Assembly (NCBI GenBank): GCA_028281005.1
Contig: JANQKS010000102.1
Location: 1-64,000 of the forward strand
Reading direction: 5' to 3'
DNA: 64,000 nt
Source of the DNA: Pseudomonadales bacterium
Lineage (GTDB): Bacteria > Pseudomonadota > Gammaproteobacteria > Pseudomonadales > Azotimanducaceae
Part shown: one piece after another, positions 2,941-9,707 of the stretch
Layout: each line of letters begins with the position of its first letter
Numbering within the stretch: position 1 is the first letter of the stretch
Program-made: the position numbers and the translations under genes
The notes under the pieces: model-generated
The model's database searches: none
Seen by the model: only the letters and a program-made list of their open reading frames with translations
What the model was told of the DNA's origin: nothing

Positions 2941-3987
2941 ATGCGCATATCTACCTTATTGAGCTACGCCGGCGGGTTTAAAGAAGCCGTGGCGGAAGTG
3001 GCAGAATTGGAAAAAGCCGGCTTAGACGTGGTCTGGGTACCGGAGGCCTACTCATTTGATGCACCCAGCGCCATGGGTTACATCGCCTCAAGAACTGAGC
3101 GGGTCACCATTGCTTCAGGCATCATGCCCATCTACAGCCGCACACCGTCGTTACTGGCGATGACCGCGGCGGGTATTGATTATTTATCCGACGGTCGCTG
3201 CATGCTTGGGCTGGGGGCTTCCGGACCCCAGGTGATAGAGGGCTTTCATGGGGTACCGTACGAAGCTCCGGTGGCGCGCACACGTGAAATTATCGACATC
3301 TGCCGCATGGTCTGGCGCCGCGAACGGGTCCAGCACCTGGGCAAACACTATCAAATCCCATTACCCCAAGACCAAGGCACCGGTTTGGGTAAACCGCTGA
3401 AACTCATCAATCACCCGGTGCGCGAGGAGATCCCCATCGCCGTGGCATCTCTAGGGCCGGCCAGTGTGGCCATGACCGCGGAACTTGCGGACGCCTGGCT
3501 GCCCGCGTTCTACACCGCCGAAGCCGCCCAGGACGTGTGGGGAGATGCTTTAGCCAAAGGCAACGCCAAACGCGATCCGAATCGCGCCCCGCTGGAAGTA
3601 TTTGCCGGAGGTATGGTGGCCATCGGTGAAGGCTTGGAACATTTGCGGGATTTGGCCCGTCCCGGTGCTGCGTTATACATCGGCGGGATGGGAGCACGCT
3701 CCAAGAACTTCTACAACGATATCTTCTCTAAGAGCGGCTACGCGGCGGAAGCCAAACAGATACAAGATCTGTACTTAGCGGGGGAGAAAAAAGCCGCGGA
3801 GGAGGCCATTCCCGACGAATACCTCGCCCGCAACTCACTTATTGGTCCTGACGGTTTTGTTAAGGAGCGTTTACACGCCTTGCAAGAATCAGGCGTCAGC
3901 TCGCTCAACGTGAGCTTTGCCGGAAAAACCGCCGCTGAACGCGTGGCCCAATGTGAGCGTTTGAAAAACCTGGTCGACACCATGTAA
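2941..3987 (+). CDS. LLM-class flavin/F420-dependent oxidoreductase
   Basis: A 348-residue (beta-alpha)8-barrel protein of the bacterial luciferase-like monooxygenase superfamily. The early VWVPEA segment, the IASGIMPIYSRTP strand and the LGLGASGPQVIEG loop match the branch usually annotated as F420-dependent (Rv3520c-like). Actual cofactor use (F420 or FMN) cannot be decided from sequence, and no F420 biosynthesis gene lies in this window. The ATG at 2941 follows a weak AGGA. The gene points toward tesB, with only 46 bases between the two stop codons, and that gap holds one copy of the conserved-loop hairpin (4006-4044). A second LLM protein from a different branch is encoded at 7456-8580. 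Confidence 0.85.
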   Translation: MRISTLLSYAGGFKEAVAEVAELEKAGLDVVWVPEAYSFDAPSAMGYIASRTERVTIASGIMPIYSRTPSLLAMTAAGIDYLSDGRCMLGLGASGPQVIEGFHGVPYEAPVARTREIIDICRMVWRRERVQHLGKHYQIPLPQDQGTGLGKPLKLINHPVREEIPIAVASLGPASVAMTAELADAWLPAFYTAEAAQDVWGDALAKGNAKRDPNRAPLEVFAGGMVAIGEGLEHLRDLARPGAALYIGGMGARSKNFYNDIFSKSGYAAEAKQIQDLYLAGEKKAAEEAIPDEYLARNSLIGPDGFVKERLHALQESGVSSLNVSFAGKTAAERVAQCERLKNLVDTM

Positions 3988-4005
3988 CGGCGCCAAGCGA
4001 GGCAA

Positions 4006-4044
4006 GGGTGCCTTAAGAATAAGTCTCAAAAGCTTAGCGCACTC
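4006..4044 (+). repeat. conserved-loop hairpin, copy A
   Basis: The arms GGGTGC (4006-4011) and GCACTC (4039-4044) can pair with one G-U, enclosing a 27-base loop. Bases 4010-4034 are identical, 25 of 25, to the reverse complement of 9262-9286. The core begins GCCTTAAG and ends AAAAGCT. In the sense direction of the upstream LLM gene the hairpin starts 18 bases after that gene's stop. Its right half overlaps the last codons of the convergent tesB gene. Function is unknown; a 3'-untranslated RNA structure or a recombination site are both possible. Confidence 0.75.
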
Positions 4045-4849
4045 GAACCAATCCTTCCTGCACCGTGGAGGCCACCAACTGGCCTGCCGCGGTGAAGATA
4101 CAACCGCGATTGAGACCGCGCCCGGCGGAGCTACTCGGCGCATCCAAGGCATACAGCAGCCACTCGGAGACATCCACCGGGTGGTGAAACCAGATTGCGT
4201 GGTCGAGACTGGCGGATTGCATATTATCCGGGTCGTAGTTGCCCCGGTGAGGGAGGCGCGCAGTACCGAGCAAAGCATTGTCTGATTCATAAACCAGCAG
4301 ACACGCCTGTAGCACCGGATCATCCGGCACTGGGCCGTTACTTTTGAACCACACATTCTGCTCGGGTGGTTGCGGCGTGGTCGATACCAAGCGCCGGAAG
4401 TCTTCACGCCAGCTGATAAACGGGCCGTCGAGCAAATAGTCGGGGATTTTGTCCGCGCTCGGCGGACGAGAATCCGGCATGGGAATTTGGTGTTCGCGTC
4501 CCGCTTCCGCAACTTGGAAAGAAGCATCCATGTTGAAGATGGCTTCTCCTTTCTGCAGCACGGTGATACGGCGGCTGGAGAATGAGCGGCCGTCACGCAG
4601 GCGTTCCACTTTGATCACCGCAGGCACCTTTGGGTCGCCTGGGCGTAAGAAGTATCCGTGCAGGGAATGCACGGGGCGCGGGGCGCTATTGTCCTCGACG
4701 GTGCGGGCGGCAGCCATGAGCGCCTGCGCCATGATCTGTCCACCGTATAAGCGGTGTTCGCGGTCAGCCGGGTGAAAAGCGCGAAACAGGTTTTCCTCGA
4801 TCTGTTCGAGGTCCAGCAGCTGGATCAACTCTTCGAGCGCGGTTGCCAC
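4034..4849 (-). CDS. tesB: acyl-CoA thioesterase II (TesB family), first copy
   Basis: A 271-residue double-hotdog thioesterase that releases free fatty acids from acyl-CoA in the cytoplasm. The N-terminal hotdog shows the LYGGQIMAQAL helix start and HSLHGYFLRPGDP. The C-terminal hotdog shows SLDHAIWFHHP, AGRGL and the final VQEGL, which hold the Asp, Thr/Ser and Gln positions of the TesB active site. Length is close to E. coli TesB (286). It starts with GTG at 4849, two bases after the stop of the 113-residue gene, so the two are surely co-transcribed. Its last codons lie inside repeat copy A. A second TesB homologue at 13754-14611 is clearly diverged, so this is not a recent duplication. 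Confidence 0.92.
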   Translation of the reverse strand: MATALEELIQLLDLEQIEENLFRAFHPADREHRLYGGQIMAQALMAAARTVEDNSAPRPVHSLHGYFLRPGDPKVPAVIKVERLRDGRSFSSRRITVLQKGEAIFNMDASFQVAEAGREHQIPMPDSRPPSADKIPDYLLDGPFISWREDFRRLVSTTPQPPEQNVWFKSNGPVPDDPVLQACLLVYESDNALLGTARLPHRGNYDPDNMQSASLDHAIWFHHPVDVSEWLLYALDAPSSSAGRGLNRGCIFTAAGQLVASTVQEGLVRVR

Positions 4850-4851
4850 AG

Positions 4852-5193
4852 CTAGTCCATACCGTCACAGAACTGGCCGTAAAACGGGTCATCACGCAGC
4901 TCACCGCGCCGGCCGTCGGCATTGATGCCGTCCAGGTGGTTCCACAGCAAATTGATAGAAAGATCCGTTTCCTCCGGCGGATTCGCCAAGGCGTCCAACA
5001 TGACTTCCGCGTCCGCGGCAATAATCATGTCAAAAGGTAATGTGCACAGGCAGTCCACGAGGTCGCGCACCAGATCATCCTGCGCCACACCATCCTTTTT
5101 TGCGGCTTGCGCCCATTCCCAAACGCCAAGTGCGTCTTTCTGCTCCTGCTGCCATTCGCGTAGCACCTGAGCGACTTCTTCTCGTGATATCAA
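4852..5193 (-). CDS. hypothetical protein, 113 aa, upstream partner of tesB
   Basis: I do not recognise this family. The protein is small, acidic and soluble-looking, with no signal peptide or membrane segment. The first 45 residues look like two amphipathic helices with several Trp and Gln, followed by DLVRDLVDCLCTLPFDM and an acidic second half. It begins with TTG at 5193, preceded by AGGTGA, which supports the start. The stop is two bases before the tesB start, so it is translated from the same mRNA and may be functionally tied to the thioesterase. Its promoter lies in the 128-base divergent gap shared with the fused hydrolase gene, which carries a near-perfect palindrome (5267-5283). Confidence 0.7.
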   Translation of the reverse strand: MISREEVAQVLREWQQEQKDALGVWEWAQAAKKDGVAQDDLVRDLVDCLCTLPFDMIIAADAEVMLDALANPPEETDLSINLLWNHLDGINADGRRGELRDDPFYGQFCDGMD

Positions 5194-5266
5194 CGGTTCA
5201 CCTGTAAGCTGTGGAGTTGTACCAAGCCCTATTGAGCAATTTATGGCGGCAAGCGCCCGTACACGC

Positions 5267-5283
5267 TTGTGATCGCGTCACAA
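5267..5283. promoter_or_regulatory. palindrome in divergent promoter region (possible operator)
   Basis: TTGTGA and TCACAA face each other across a 5-base centre (TCGCG), and the dyad continues imperfectly as GC...AGC. The half-sites are those of CRP/FNR-family regulators, but the spacer is 5 rather than the 6 of the CRP consensus. It sits between the tesB operon and the fused hydrolase gene, 39 bases before the ATG at 5322, a position suited to control in either direction. No regulator gene is adjacent. Confidence 0.4.
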
Positions 5284-5321
5284 AGCGGGGCTAAGTGTAG
5301 ACAAATTTGAGGGGAGAACAC

Positions 5322-7358
5322 ATGCAAGTAGAGCGTGCATGGGGGTTTGCAGCTGGACACATATGCCGGCTGTTAGTAGCGACGGGCGTGGTAGCGGCGA
5401 TGGGCGCTATGACGGGATGCGAAAACGCATCCGCACCCGCCAGCGACAGTACCAGCCCCAACACCAATACCAGCATGGAGCCCGAAGCGGTCACCGCCGG
5501 TATTAGCCAGCTGCCGCCAGGGTGGAGTTCGTTTTCTCCCGGCGGCGATACCACCTGTTCCGATGGCAGTGAATACCGCTTTTTTGTACGACCCGGCGAT
5601 CCAGACAAGCTGATGGTGTTTTTCCAAGGCGGCGGCGCCTGCTGGACCCGCGAAACCTGCGACCCGGCAGGCCGACCAACTTATACGGTCAATATCCCTG
5701 CGGATTACACACCGTTTCCATTTGGTGCGTTTAACTTCCATAACCCGGATAATCCGTTTCGCAACTACAGCGTAGTAATGGCACCGTACTGCACGGGGGA
5801 CGTCCACTTGGGTGCGGCAGACACCGCCTATCCCGGGGAAAACGAAGACCAAGCGCCGCTTATCGTTCGCCATCAGGGCCGCGCTAATGCACAAGCGGTA
5901 CTCGATTGGACCTACGCCAACGTACCCAATCCTGAACACGTGTTTGTCACCGGCTCCTCCGCAGGTGCAATTCCTTCACCGTTCTACGCCAGCTTAATCG
6001 CGGATCAATACCCCGCAGCGCGCATTGCCCATCTTGGTGACGGCGCCGGCGGCTACCGACGAATCAATACAGACACGCGACCCGACGCTTCCTGGGGGAC
6101 ATTTGATTTCATTAACCAAGAGCGTGGCTTTGCCGACCTGACACCCGACGGTTTTAACTACGAACAACTTTATATCGCCGCGGCCAAAGCCCATCCGGAG
6201 ATCATATTTGCGGAATATGATGCCGCTGAAGACGCTGTGCAGAAGCGCTTCTTAGCCATCGGTGGCGCCACGGACGTGGCGTTGATTGATTCACTAAAGG
6301 CTAACCACGCGGACATTCGCGCCGCGGCGCCAAATTTTCGCGCCTTTATCACCGGCGGTGCTTCACACACCATCCTGCGCCGACCGGAGTTTTACAGCTA
6401 TGGCGTAGACGGCACCTCGGTGCGTGATTGGGTGGCCAACCTGGCCGCCTATCAAGACGTGGATAACGTCAGCTGTACGGACTGCACCCATGACACATTC
6501 GCGGGGCCAGCCTTACCGGCGGTGATGCAGACGTTATGGAACAACTGGGAAGATCCCAAACAGCAGTACGTCGAACCTTTCCAGATTTTCGACAACGTGT
6601 ATTTTGTCGGCATCAACTGGGTGGCCGCATACGTACTGAAAACCAGTGAAGGCCTGATTCTAATCGACTCTCTGTATGGAAAGTGGACCCAACAGTTGGT
6701 GCGCAACATGACGCAACTGGGGCTTAACCCCAAAGACGTGAAGTACGTTATCACCACGCATGGCCATTTCGATCATGCCGGCGGCAACGCCTTTTTCAAA
6801 GCGTTCTCCAACGCACGCATTGTCATGACCGCAGAAGACTGGGCGTTGGCAGAGGAAAAACCCGAATTTGCGGCACTCTACATGCCGGTGATGCCACGCG
6901 ATATTGTGGCCGCAGACGGTGATGTCATCGAGTTAGGCGACACGCGCTTAGAGATGTACAAAACCCCAGGCCACACCGAAGGGGTGCTGAGCTTGCGCTA
7001 TGAGGTCCACGACGGCGACAACACCTATACGGCCATGACCTTGGGAGGAGTAGGTCTAAACTTTTCCGGAGTAGCGCGCACACAGAGTTACATCGAGAGT
7101 TACCGGCGTTTACAAAACATGCAGGACGGCATTAGCGTCAGTCTGCCGAATCACGCCGCCATGGCCAACGTGTTCGAGCGGGGTGCGGCCCTGGCCGAAC
7201 GCCAAGCCGGTGAACCACACCCGTTTGTGGATCCGGATGCCTACCGCGCCCGCCTGGCCACCTTTCTGGCCAACGCCGGCGCCAAGCTGGAAGCGGAACA
7301 AACGGGCACCGCCAAGGACCCTCTGCAAGAGTTGAACTCTGTGTTAAGCAGTAATTAG
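5322..7358 (+). CDS. lipoprotein fusing a pectin-acetylesterase-type hydrolase to a metallo-beta-lactamase-fold domain
   Basis: A 678-residue, apparently two-enzyme protein. The ATG at 5322 follows GAGGGGAG and is preferred over the TTG at 5307. A hydrophobic N-terminus ends in MTGC, a plausible lipobox, followed by an Ala/Ser/Thr/Pro linker. Residues about 50-375 resemble the pectin acetylesterase/notum family: LPPGWSSF, FFQGGGACW, the nucleophile elbow GSSAG with Ser213, and GGASHTIL supplying the likely catalytic His. Residues about 410-650 are a metallo-beta-lactamase fold with H480-G-H482-F-D484-H485, then TPGHTEG and LPNHA, consistent with a dinuclear zinc site like subclass B3 and related hydrolases. 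The frame is open throughout and both active sites look intact, so this is a true fusion. Location should be periplasmic or outer-membrane-bound. Substrates are unknown. Confidence 0.85.
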   Translation: MQVERAWGFAAGHICRLLVATGVVAAMGAMTGCENASAPASDSTSPNTNTSMEPEAVTAGISQLPPGWSSFSPGGDTTCSDGSEYRFFVRPGDPDKLMVFFQGGGACWTRETCDPAGRPTYTVNIPADYTPFPFGAFNFHNPDNPFRNYSVVMAPYCTGDVHLGAADTAYPGENEDQAPLIVRHQGRANAQAVLDWTYANVPNPEHVFVTGSSAGAIPSPFYASLIADQYPAARIAHLGDGAGGYRRINTDTRPDASWGTFDFINQERGFADLTPDGFNYEQLYIAAAKAHPEIIFAEYDAAEDAVQKRFLAIGGATDVALIDSLKANHADIRAAAPNFRAFITGGASHTILRRPEFYSYGVDGTSVRDWVANLAAYQDVDNVSCTDCTHDTFAGPALPAVMQTLWNNWEDPKQQYVEPFQIFDNVYFVGINWVAAYVLKTSEGLILIDSLYGKWTQQLVRNMTQLGLNPKDVKYVITTHGHFDHAGGNAFFKAFSNARIVMTAEDWALAEEKPEFAALYMPVMPRDIVAADGDVIELGDTRLEMYKTPGHTEGVLSLRYEVHDGDNTYTAMTLGGVGLNFSGVARTQSYIESYRRLQNMQDGISVSLPNHAAMANVFERGAALAERQAGEPHPFVDPDAYRARLATFLANAGAKLEAEQTGTAKDPLQELNSVLSSN

Positions 7359-7433
7359 GCAACGCACGGCAAACAGCAGCTTAAGCAAAACCAGGGATCA
7401 CGCAGGAAACCGAGGGATAACTGGGGAGAACTC

Positions 7434-7455
7434 AGAAGAAGGAAGGAGAAGGAAG
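7434..7455 (+). promoter_or_regulatory. purine-only leader immediately before a GTG start
   Basis: An unbroken 22-base A/G run containing several overlapping GGAAGG/AAGGAG Shine-Dalgarno-like cores ends directly at the GTG start at 7456. It is longer than a normal ribosome-binding site and resembles purine runs before two other starts in this arm (9708-9731 minus, 14618-14666 plus). Confidence 0.6.
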
Positions 7456-8580
7456 GTGAAGTTTGGGTTGTTTATGTACTGCACAGTGGGGCGCCGTGAA
7501 GAGTTGCAGGCGGGTATGGCCGGCCGCAATAACACGTTATACCAGCGTATGCTGCACGAAATTGCAGCCTATGCGCGTTTTGCGGATGACAATGGTTACC
7601 ACGCCTTTGGCCATCCGGAACACCACCTGCAAATTGAAGGCTTCGAGATTTCCAATGATCCAGTGGCCATGGCCATGTACCTTGGTACGCACACCGAGCG
7701 CCTGCGTGTGGTGACGTGCGGCTTCGTATCCACGGCCAATAATCCACTACAGACCGCAGAAAAGATCGCCACGTTAGACCACATGTTAGGCGGGCGCTTC
7801 GGCGTAGGTCTGGTACGCGGCTACCAAGCGCGTTGGGTGGAAAACTACAAGGTGCGGCCAGAACTAAACGCGGTGGGACCGTGGAATGCCAAAACTCCCG
7901 AAGACGATCTCAATCGCGCCTATTTCGGTGAGTTTGTGGAAGTGGTGGTACGCGCTTTGCGGGAGGAGACGATCAACCATCGCGGGCAATTCTGGGATTT
8001 TCCACCACAAGGATTTGTAAATCCCCACGACCACCCGGTCTATACTCAGTACGGCCAAGGGGTGGCGGAAGACATGCGGGTCGACGCCGTGGGTATCGCA
8101 CCGCGGCCGCTACAGGACCAGATCCCCCTATATGGCGGCTTCTCCCAGAGTTTGACCACAGCCAAATTTTGGGCGCGCTATAAAGGGCGCCCCATCATCC
8201 TGTCGGGCAACACCGAATTTCTGCAACTGTTGTGGAAAGAATGGACAGAAGAGGCCAAATCCCATGGCCACACGGTGAAGCCGGGAGACCAGGCTTGCTG
8301 GGGCGGCATCATGATTTGTGCAGAGACGGACGCCAAAGCCATGGCGCTGTACGAAGACATGGCCTGGTTTTGGAAAACCTGGGCCACACCTTTTGGTCAG
8401 GGTGTACCGGAGCTCCTGGTCGGCTCACCCGACACGTTAAACAAACGCATTGAGGAAATTGGTAATGCGGTGCCCATCGACGAGGCTTTTCTGCTGATTC
8501 CCCAAGGCTTGCACACCCAAGAGCAATTGTTGGATTCTTTGGATTTGTTTGCCCGCAAGGTGATGCCGAATCATGGTTAA
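7456..8580 (+). CDS. LLM-class flavin-dependent oxidoreductase (LuxA-like branch)
   Basis: A 374-residue luciferase-like flavin monooxygenase from a different branch than the protein at 2941. MKFGLFMYCT opens the barrel, HPEHHLQIEGFEISNDP marks the flavin/substrate face, and NPLQTAEKIATLDHMLGGR and GVGLVRGY are typical of FMN-dependent LLM enzymes related to alkanal monooxygenase alpha. It therefore probably uses FMNH2 from a reductase elsewhere to hydroxylate or oxidise a hydrophobic compound; the substrate is unknown. The GTG at 7456 is fixed by the purine-only leader directly upstream. The gene is 97 bases after the fused hydrolase gene, in the same direction, and a short secreted-protein gene follows after 62 bases, so the three may form one transcription unit. 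Confidence 0.88.
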   Translation: MKFGLFMYCTVGRREELQAGMAGRNNTLYQRMLHEIAAYARFADDNGYHAFGHPEHHLQIEGFEISNDPVAMAMYLGTHTERLRVVTCGFVSTANNPLQTAEKIATLDHMLGGRFGVGLVRGYQARWVENYKVRPELNAVGPWNAKTPEDDLNRAYFGEFVEVVVRALREETINHRGQFWDFPPQGFVNPHDHPVYTQYGQGVAEDMRVDAVGIAPRPLQDQIPLYGGFSQSLTTAKFWARYKGRPIILSGNTEFLQLLWKEWTEEAKSHGHTVKPGDQACWGGIMICAETDAKAMALYEDMAWFWKTWATPFGQGVPELLVGSPDTLNKRIEEIGNAVPIDEAFLLIPQGLHTQEQLLDSLDLFARKVMPNHG

Positions 8581-8642
8581 GCACACATCCACACGCTTAC
8601 CTGGGGTGGAACTTTCAACCAGCGCAAAACTCAAAACTTAAT

Positions 8643-9239
8643 ATGTTACAGATCCAGACCACGCGCCCGCTGCATACCAGCCCCAGCTTAACTTTGGCTG
8701 CGGTGAGCATCACCCTGTTAATGCTGGTCTCGGCATCGGCGCTTGCGGCCAAACCAAACCCGATGCAAGGCACCTGGCGTATCAACCTGGAGGAGACAGA
8801 CAAAGTCTCGGTTGATTTCGAAGAGGGCAGCGGAATCCAAGGCCGCAACATGGGTCGCACCACCGTAACGGTAATGGGGCTGCCGCTGCCCAGTCGCGCC
8901 AAGGCGTCACCCATGTCTGGCCTGCCGGCCAAAGATCCGGAAGTGCTGGTGTGCACACAAATGGAGCTGAGTGTGCAGGGCAACAAGGTGCTTCTCGACT
9001 ATGACAACGGCAACCGCGAAACCCTACGCAAGGGCGATTTCCGCGGCCGTACCACCTCCATGTCGAGCAAAAAGATCGAACAGAAGTACAAAACCACCGA
9101 ACGCCGAGTGCGCAAAACCTGGAGCCTACGGGACGATGGGCGTTTGCTCGTAGCGGTGCGTATCAAGTACCAGGGTGACAAAGCCCGCACCTACAATCGA
9201 GTATTTGACCGCGTCCCCGCAACCGCTGACGCAGGCTGA
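8643..9239 (+). CDS. hypothetical secreted protein, 198 aa
   Basis: Not recognised as a named family. Residues 15-36 form a hydrophobic signal-peptide-like stretch ending SASALAAKP, so the mature protein probably begins near residue 37 in the periplasm. The mature part is rich in short beta-type segments (MQGTWRINLEET, VTVMGLPLP, LSVQGNKVLLDYDN, LLVAVRIKYQG) and basic residues, which suggests a small beta-barrel or lipocalin-like fold; this is only an impression. The frame starts at an ATG 62 bases after the LLM gene and faces the MAPEG gene. The gap to that gene contains copy B of the conserved-loop hairpin. Confidence 0.65.
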   Translation: MLQIQTTRPLHTSPSLTLAAVSITLLMLVSASALAAKPNPMQGTWRINLEETDKVSVDFEEGSGIQGRNMGRTTVTVMGLPLPSRAKASPMSGLPAKDPEVLVCTQMELSVQGNKVLLDYDNGNRETLRKGDFRGRTTSMSSKKIEQKYKTTERRVRKTWSLRDDGRLLVAVRIKYQGDKARTYNRVFDRVPATADAG

Positions 9240-9250
9240 GCACAGCCCTA

Positions 9251-9290
9251 GGGAGCCTCTGAGCTTTTGAGACTTATTCTTAAGGCTCCC
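9251..9290 (-). repeat. conserved-loop hairpin, copy B
   Basis: Read on the minus strand, GGGAGCC (9290-9284) pairs perfectly with GGCTCCC (9257-9251) around a 26-base loop. Bases 9262-9286 are the exact reverse complement of 4010-4034. Relative to copy A the fourth stem pair is A-T instead of T-A, a compensatory change. It begins 21 bases after the stop of the minus-strand MAPEG gene, the same sense position as copy A has behind its LLM gene. Confidence 0.75.
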
Positions 9291-9311
9291 CGGCGACCGG
9301 CGCTGCCTAGA

Positions 9312-9707
9312 CTACGCAAGTATGGCCATGCCAAATATCCACAGGCACATGGCGGCACCCGTAACAAAACCCACCACGCGCAGCACCGCCAATTCCATCA
9401 CATAGGCAATCCCGTGCACCACCCGGCCCGCGAGCCATATCATGCTGGCGATGGCCCAAGTACCGGCGGGGTCTACACTTTGCATGAAGGCAGCCAAGGT
9501 CGCCGCCATATAGATGCTCAGGGCTTCCCACGCGTTCATTTGTGCGCCCCATGCGCCGGCTCCCCCTGCGGTAAGTTCCGCAGCCTGCAAACGCGGCTGC
9601 TGTAAATCAACTTTTCCCAGTTGGCGGGAACGAAATGGCACCGACACGCCCGCCCAGATCAGCGGTAACAGCACCCCGCACAACAAACACCACAATGGAA
9701 TGGTCAT
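9312..9707 (-). CDS. MAPEG-family membrane protein
   Basis: A 131-residue integral inner-membrane protein with four predicted transmembrane helices. It matches the MAPEG superfamily (microsomal glutathione transferase/FLAP-like): the GAQMNAWEALSIY helix corresponds to the conserved N-x-x-E motif after helix 1, and WLAGRVVHGIAYV matches the family's arginine-containing third helix. Bacterial members are thought to conjugate or reduce lipophilic electrophiles and peroxides with glutathione, but most are untested. The ATG is preceded by a 24-base purine run on its own strand (9731-9708). The gene lies 65 bases downstream of the FMN glutamate-synthase-like gene in the same direction. Confidence 0.85.
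   Translation of the reverse strand: MTIPLWCLLCGVLLPLIWAGVSVPFRSRQLGKVDLQQPRLQAAELTAGGAGAWGAQMNAWEALSIYMAATLAAFMQSVDPAGTWAIASMIWLAGRVVHGIAYVMELAVLRVVGFVTGAAMCLWIFGMAILA

Follow-up and report, generated by a model that had tools for sequence, protein, structure and literature searches.

The two hairpins at 4003–4047 and 9248–9293 of the Pseudomonadales contig JANQKS010000102.1 (assembly GCA_028281005.1; its positions 1 to 64,000 are hereafter the window) are very probably solitary, minimal (~45 bp) collapsed members of a family of miniature inverted-repeat transposable elements (MITEs) with IS5-type ends. Copy 1 (plus strand, right boundary approximate) is a decayed element with the GGGTGCC variant of the terminal inverted repeat (TIR), and copy 2 (minus strand) carries the GGGAGCC variant. 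Their cores, at 4010–4034 on the plus strand and 9262–9286 on the minus strand, are identical over exactly 25 bases with no extension beyond, the core of copy 1 being composed of the inner part of the TIR, AATAAGTCTCA, and AAAGCT. This identity, from which an earlier sequence-only reading of the window had started, was confirmed: no two sites in the window separated by over 100 bases share a longer exact inverted match, and in 20 Markov-1 random sequences of equal length the longest was 14–17 bases, indicating that the match did not arise by chance. The stems were also as that reading had described them (GGGTGC/GCACTC, which includes one G·T pair, in copy 1 and GGGAGCC/GGCTCCC in copy 2), but the elements extend farther than it had drawn them. 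The left end of copy 1 is CAAG and its right end is decayed; copy 2 has CTAG at 9248–9251 and CCGG at 9290–9293. At the positions of CAAG and CCGG, other copies have CTAG.

The hairpins had been regarded as a pair. In the source genome (5.1 Mb in 135 contigs), however, the exact core GMATAAGTCTCA occurred 70 times, compared with 2 occurrences of a reversed control pattern, and a search with 65 bases around copy 1 returned 41 places at E ≤ 1, of which 15 had E ≤ 0.001. A multi-copy structured repeat close to stop codons, as had been suspected, is therefore real. The copies were either palindromes of ~45 bp or the TIRs of elements of ~90–270 bp. When 71 cores (the 70 exact ones and one variant) were aligned, three forms were distinguished, namely solitary palindromes such as CTAGGGAGCCTCTGAATAAGTCTCAAAAGCTCAGAGGCTCCCTAG, left ends continuing into CAGAGGCACTGGCGCG, and right ends continuing into TGTGCTCAGCGTGTCATACGG; left and right ends were assembled into single elements at, for example, C19, C128, C47, and C72. 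A YTAR tetranucleotide stood immediately left of the core in 58 of the 70 cases. Copies with TTAA at both ends (the C124 copy and locus L129) showed a coordinated end change.

A full-length member was ~267 bp long and consisted of a CTAG (YTAR) target copy, a TIR of ~22 bp, an interior of ~207 bp with two hairpins, and the mirror TIR. The TIR was GGGAGCCTCTG[A/C]ATAAGTCTCA or the variant GGGTGCCTTAAG. The elements are short, have TIRs, and carry no transposase gene, as MITEs do. As DNA, the full-length palindromic element folded at −102.9 kcal/mol (z −12.6). With the full element as the query, matches were found in 35 of 150 genomes of the bacterial family, and the end pattern TAGGGANCCTCTGANTAA was present in 24 of 206, the own genome being included in both counts; related full-length elements of ~240–340 bp followed the same plan. 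A scan of named genomes gave at least 120 loci, among them Microbulbifer, Marinobacter, Gilvimarinus, Hydrogenovibrio, other proteobacterial records, and some other phyla. Two full-length elements searched against plasmids gave no match.

The same ends also bound an autonomous element. Among the 120 loci listed, 39 had an inverted end pair, spaced 43–340 bp in 38 of them and 1188 bp in one. The latter was a complete insertion sequence of ~1.19 kb from an uncultured gammaproteobacterium (CAMYOI010000174.1; L296:6229–7416) with the ends CTAGGGAACCTCTGATTAA and CTAG at both ends. Its transposase of 318 aa matched the IS5 family (NF033581, E 2.5e-108) as well as PF01609 and PF05598, and this IS5-type DDE transposase together with the YTAR target places the insertion sequence in the IS5 family. 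When 12 genomes were searched with the L296 transposase, insertion-sequence remnants were found in two, both of the same genus. The remnant in genome G169 starts with the same end, TTAGGGAACCTCTGATT, and the end in G173, GGAAGGTCTGAATAATT, is related to it. The TIRs are thus common to the miniature elements and to the autonomous element. The earlier suggestion of a recombinase site came near the truth, since the ends are of transposase type.

These ends bear on another origin for the family, that of REP/BIME-type repeats spread by a REP-associated tyrosine transposase (RAYT). The repeats are indeed short, mostly intergenic, palindromic, and numerous, and Y1_Tnp matches were found in seven of eight genomes searched, six of them above the cut-off. 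However, the only Y1_Tnp-free genome of the eight was that of the window, with its 70 cores, and the TIR patterns occurred in none of 12 Y1_Tnp loci, one of which holds a short interior word. A GTAG head is the hallmark of REPs; the ends found here are instead the TIRs of a DDE-transposase insertion sequence. We therefore rejected a RAYT origin as hardly credible, as no RAYT (Y1) transposase was linked to the repeats in the genomes searched. An IS1380-like insertion sequence (family by our judgement; PF01609) at L088:870–2533 on contig C68, which directly adjoins a 45-bp hairpin, was likewise set aside as a source of the hairpins, because its ends differ from those of the hairpin.

How the short hairpins could derive from the long elements was addressed by in silico deletion in three elements between direct repeats of at least 4 bases, one in the first 60 bases and the other in the final 50, with known variable bases allowed in the product search. 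In the C128 element, deletion at the longest repeat, CAGAGGC, gave the 45-bp hairpin (found in 5 copies), and deletion at GCTC gave a 37-bp form (2 copies observed). In the C47 element, deletion at AGGC gave the 46-bp GGGTGCC form (2 copies observed). These predicted products equalled the observed short hairpins except at one to three variable bases. The two solitary 37-bp copies (L091, ~923–959, and L073) have the GCTC junction, a hint of recurrent collapse.

The difference between the two window stems is explained by the same elements. The sequence-only reading took the T-A/A-T change at the fourth stem pair as a compensatory sign of a selected structure. GGGTGCC and GGGAGCC, however, are TIR variants, each of which stands at both ends of its own longer elements (L032 and L035; 0 mismatches over 16 bases), and the stems differ because these two variants exist. 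Moreover, the inner stem (TTAAG opposite CAGAG) is unpaired in the GGGTGCC subfamily, which argues against selection for the hairpin and is predicted by microhomology deletion. We propose that an IS5-group transposase acting in trans would have inserted the elements at CTAG/YTAR with duplication of the tetranucleotide, and that short direct repeats in the palindrome (CAGAGGC, AGGC, and GCTC) would have allowed replication slippage to delete the interior. Such a deletion would leave the left end joined directly to the right end's tip, and the hairpin would be a by-product of two inverted ends. We infer the mobility, the transcription, and the deletion mechanism of the elements.

Both copies were absent from relatives. 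For copy 1, a synteny search matched 39 of 40 genomes of the genus, own included; the loci of 11 relatives were taken, two of which had no thioesterase match, and in all nine usable syntenic loci with both genes copy 1 was missing (inter-stop gap −4 to 73, versus 46 here). For copy 2, 11 relatives' loci were taken, four failed the filter for both genes, and the copy was missing in all seven usable loci (gaps −20 to 18, versus 72 here). In the loci examined, both copies thus showed the presence/absence difference between relatives that is expected of MITEs.

The order of events could also be reversed: the 45-bp palindrome would then be the primary mobile unit or a favored target, and insertion of the two-hairpin interior into it would have produced the long elements. 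In its favor, the same 45-bp architecture with different bases occurs in another genus (L155), and solitary copies are numerous and are placed differently from long ones. However, the junctions fall at 4–7-bp direct repeats of the long form and differ between the 45-mer and the 37-mer, and the right arm of the solitary form holds TCAGAG, which is also found at the interior start of long elements with entirely different TIRs. We consider this order of events unlikely.

Several results weigh against an origin by collapse of IS5-type MITEs. The L296-type transposase had no match in the window's own genome, so that the mobilizing enzyme is inferred from other genomes; none of the eight PF01609 loci in the own genome was flanked by these ends, and some had no evident end pair. 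An end pair of insertion-sequence length was found only once among the 120 loci listed. YTAR was missing at the left end of 12 of the 70 cores, including both window copies in the orientation of the core; at least one of the cores without YTAR, that inside a gene at L116, looks like a chance match. Considering that CTAG is its own reverse complement and that the terminal tetranucleotides are mostly palindromic, a target duplication is inseparable from a fixed end. Many of the 135 contigs end inside the element, and the relatives, with 66–74% DNA identity in the loci compared, are too diverged for base-exact empty sites. No copy was found of the three other products predicted for C128, the four others for C47, or the six for C19, an element whose right end is mutated. 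Solitary copies might also transpose as such.

The placement of the copies adds to these points. Solitary copies were placed with a purpose-made codon-usage gene caller, and the baseline gaps were taken from this one window. Their number depended on the filter: 27 were obtained by regular expression, which misses a convergent copy at C70:47833, and 29 in another set that includes two truncated left ends. Among the 27, 14 lay between convergent genes, 9 between tandem genes, 2 between divergent genes, and 2 at contig edges; the gaps of the window itself number 8, 31, and 10 for the first three classes. The convergent excess (14 of the 25 with known context) had a binomial P of 7e-6 by gap number and 9e-4 by gap length, and was weaker when weighted by the number of stops (P 0.02). 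For long-element ends with both neighbors called (n = 13), 1 was convergent, 10 tandem, and 2 divergent; another 24 ends at contig or locus edges were left out of this comparison. The contrast in convergent placement between solitary copies and long-element ends (14/25 versus 1/13) had a Fisher P of 0.005, or 0.02 after merging the ends of one element, and target choice and collapse alone do not account for it. It may come from selection on solitary copies or from sampling bias by contig breaks.

Target choice may still contribute to the location at stop codons. IS5 duplicates Py-T-A-Pu, with CTAG the commonest target and under-represented in bacterial genomes (PMC5493358). In the window, CTAG occurred 58 times, versus 243 expected from base composition. 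Seven of the 58 sites overlapped a stop codon, 22 were intergenic, and 29 were in genes; non-coding sequence makes up 15% of the window. In 9 of the 27 solitary copies, the predicted gene stop was the TAG of the terminal tetranucleotide. Since CTAG is rare and some CTAG sites hold TAG stops, we propose that insertions often occur at the ends of genes. If insertions that hit genes, promoters, or operons were in addition selected against, an excess between convergent genes would remain.

The same convergent excess, greater for solitary copies than for long-element ends, speaks for a selected 3'-untranslated RNA motif located after the stops of converging genes, either a hairpin that binds a protein or small RNA, as the sequence-only reading had suggested, or a terminator acting in both directions. 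Both window copies also fold slightly better than shuffles, at −13.2 kcal/mol (z −1.56, equalled by 15 of 200 shuffles) and −17.6 kcal/mol (z −1.92, 6 of 200), although these folds are modest, and a single terminator-like site stands beside copy 1 (minus strand, 3996–3974), though outside the hairpin. The copies are not oriented in the sense direction as had been expected: the nine tandem solitary copies, counted by eye, were 2 sense and 7 antisense, indicating no sense bias. No T-run follows either hairpin, as had been noted from the start, and a terminator scan of the window, covering loops of 3–8 bases only, gave no call overlapping either of them. A search of 3900–9400 against the Rfam covariance models with E up to 1 gave no match. 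Together with the unpaired inner stem of the GGGTGCC subfamily, the absence of the hairpins from the examined relatives with the same gene pairs, their production by the deletion model, and the sharing of their ends with elements of several sizes and an insertion sequence, these results make a selected RNA motif very unlikely. As a secondary role, solitary hairpins may act as bidirectional 3'-end barriers.

Convergent gene pairs flank both window hairpins. Copy 1 lies between a luciferase-like (LLM) oxidoreductase gene (2941–3987, plus strand; PF00296) and an acyl-CoA thioesterase gene (4034–4849, minus strand; PF02551 and PF13622), whose TAA stop codon (4034–4036, minus strand) is within the hairpin. 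Copy 2 lies between a gene without a Pfam match (8643–9239, plus strand), which ends 8 bases before it, and a MAPEG protein gene (9312–9707, minus strand; PF01124). At 5400–7358, a single gene joins a pectinacetylesterase-like domain (PF03283) to a metallo-beta-lactamase-fold domain (PF00753).

The interior of the parent element was then compared between elements with different ends. Of 10 extracted interiors, seven were aligned, and L131 (longer), L134 (a near-duplicate), and L151 (divergent) were omitted. Three of the seven came from elements with GGA.CCTCTG ends and four from elements with GTGTCGTGTC ends; they aligned over ~207 bp, and their consensus fold comprised two long hairpins with 72 pairs, of which 38 had two-sided compensated changes, while 95.2% of the cells could pair. 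This covariation was approached by 0 of 500 shuffles and 0 of 6 slid versions, in a test that favors the structure because it was derived from the same alignment. The total length is nearly fixed, the linker resembles CTCCCGAAGGGCG, and a conserved internal-loop motif, GCAAGGC/CAACG, occurs once per strand. Template-switch correction of the palindrome could be a source of interior covariation, but the conserved unpaired positions argue against it as the sole cause.

At E ≤ 1e-4, a covariance model of the interior found it in 39 of the 185 class genomes searched, counting the own genome, and in 34 of the 162 good ones. Many of the class genomes had 11–13 matches, with 13 candidates scored per genome and a palindromic element able to match on both strands. 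On 100 of the 120 named loci the model gave 70 matches at E ≤ 0.01, often on both strands of one element. Among 22 class loci (L323–L344), ends were called by script in 15, none were called in 5, and 2 were at contig edges; about nine end sequences were distinguished by eye, most with CTAG or CTAA. The covarying ~207-bp interior is shared, despite differing terminal repeats, by L035:2784–3050, L129–L152, and L323–L344. Various ends thus accompany one structured interior, which may reflect exchange of ends, capture by several insertion-sequence families, or deep descent with fast-changing ends. Somewhat short of an even chance, in our estimate, is the broader proposal that the interior is an independent, structurally selected mobile module combined with about nine transposase end sequences at CTAG-type sites, carried as cargo on several insertion-sequence families, with the window hairpins as the remains after cargo loss.

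Elements of other kinds were also seen. L212, L228, and L237 hold 150-bp elements with CTAGGGAACCTCTG ends and a different, single-hairpin interior, and L129:997–1231 is a second foldback element with another end, TTAGTTCGTNGC, ~265 bases from the CCTCTG-type element of that locus.

In a comparison of 20 loci with Rfam, no match reached the gathering score. For the full-length element, MIR8788 (E 8.7e-5, 35.9 bits versus a gathering score of 124) and Sso133 (E 0.58) were both below gathering, and we read them as generic long-hairpin matches. A description of the two-hairpin interior or of the end sequences was not found in the open PMC literature, which does not by itself show their absence from print. 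Within the accessible part of that literature, the nearest described element is MITEPsy1 of Pseudomonas syringae pv. phaseolicola with its likely parent ISPsy2. MITEPsy1 is a small non-coding element of 100 nt with six copies in that strain and demonstrated transposition; it has the IS5-type TIRs GGAAGGTCTGAAAAAGCC and GTATCCTCTGAAAAAGCC and duplicates 4 nt on insertion at CTAG or YTAA, and ISPsy2 is an IS5-family element of 1194 nt (PMC3189936). CCTCTGA is common to the TIRs of MITEPsy1 and of the window family, GGAAGGTCTGAA is common to MITEPsy1 and the insertion-sequence end in G173, and ISPsy2 belongs to the same size class as the L296 insertion sequence. The available portions of the MITEPsy1 report describe neither a two-hairpin interior nor a collapsed form of ~45 bp, and transposition, shown there, is presumed for the window family. 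The TIR sequence of IS5 from E. coli differs from that of the window family, and IS5 is autonomous, whereas the miniature elements of the window are non-autonomous. IS5 has a transposase of the same family (NF033581) as that of the L296 insertion sequence and the Py-T-A-Pu target given above (PMC5493358). Correia/NEMIS, RUP, RPE, and YPAL/RU-2 are likewise small non-coding repeats, several of them palindromic, but most have TA dinucleotide termini in the accessible account, and they are set apart here by description only (PMC2229807).

What looked like a new RNA motif thus becomes a well-supported case in which a palindrome with a "compensatory" pair arises without RNA selection, through TIR variants and microhomology deletion. 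It is a warning against covariation claims made from few copies, and target choice is offered as one reason for the bias toward stop codons. The larger gain is the parent element, whose covarying two-hairpin module recurs in 39 of the 185 class genomes with ends that differ between lineages. It prompts the testable question of what preserves a non-coding structure when the ends recognized by the transposase change.

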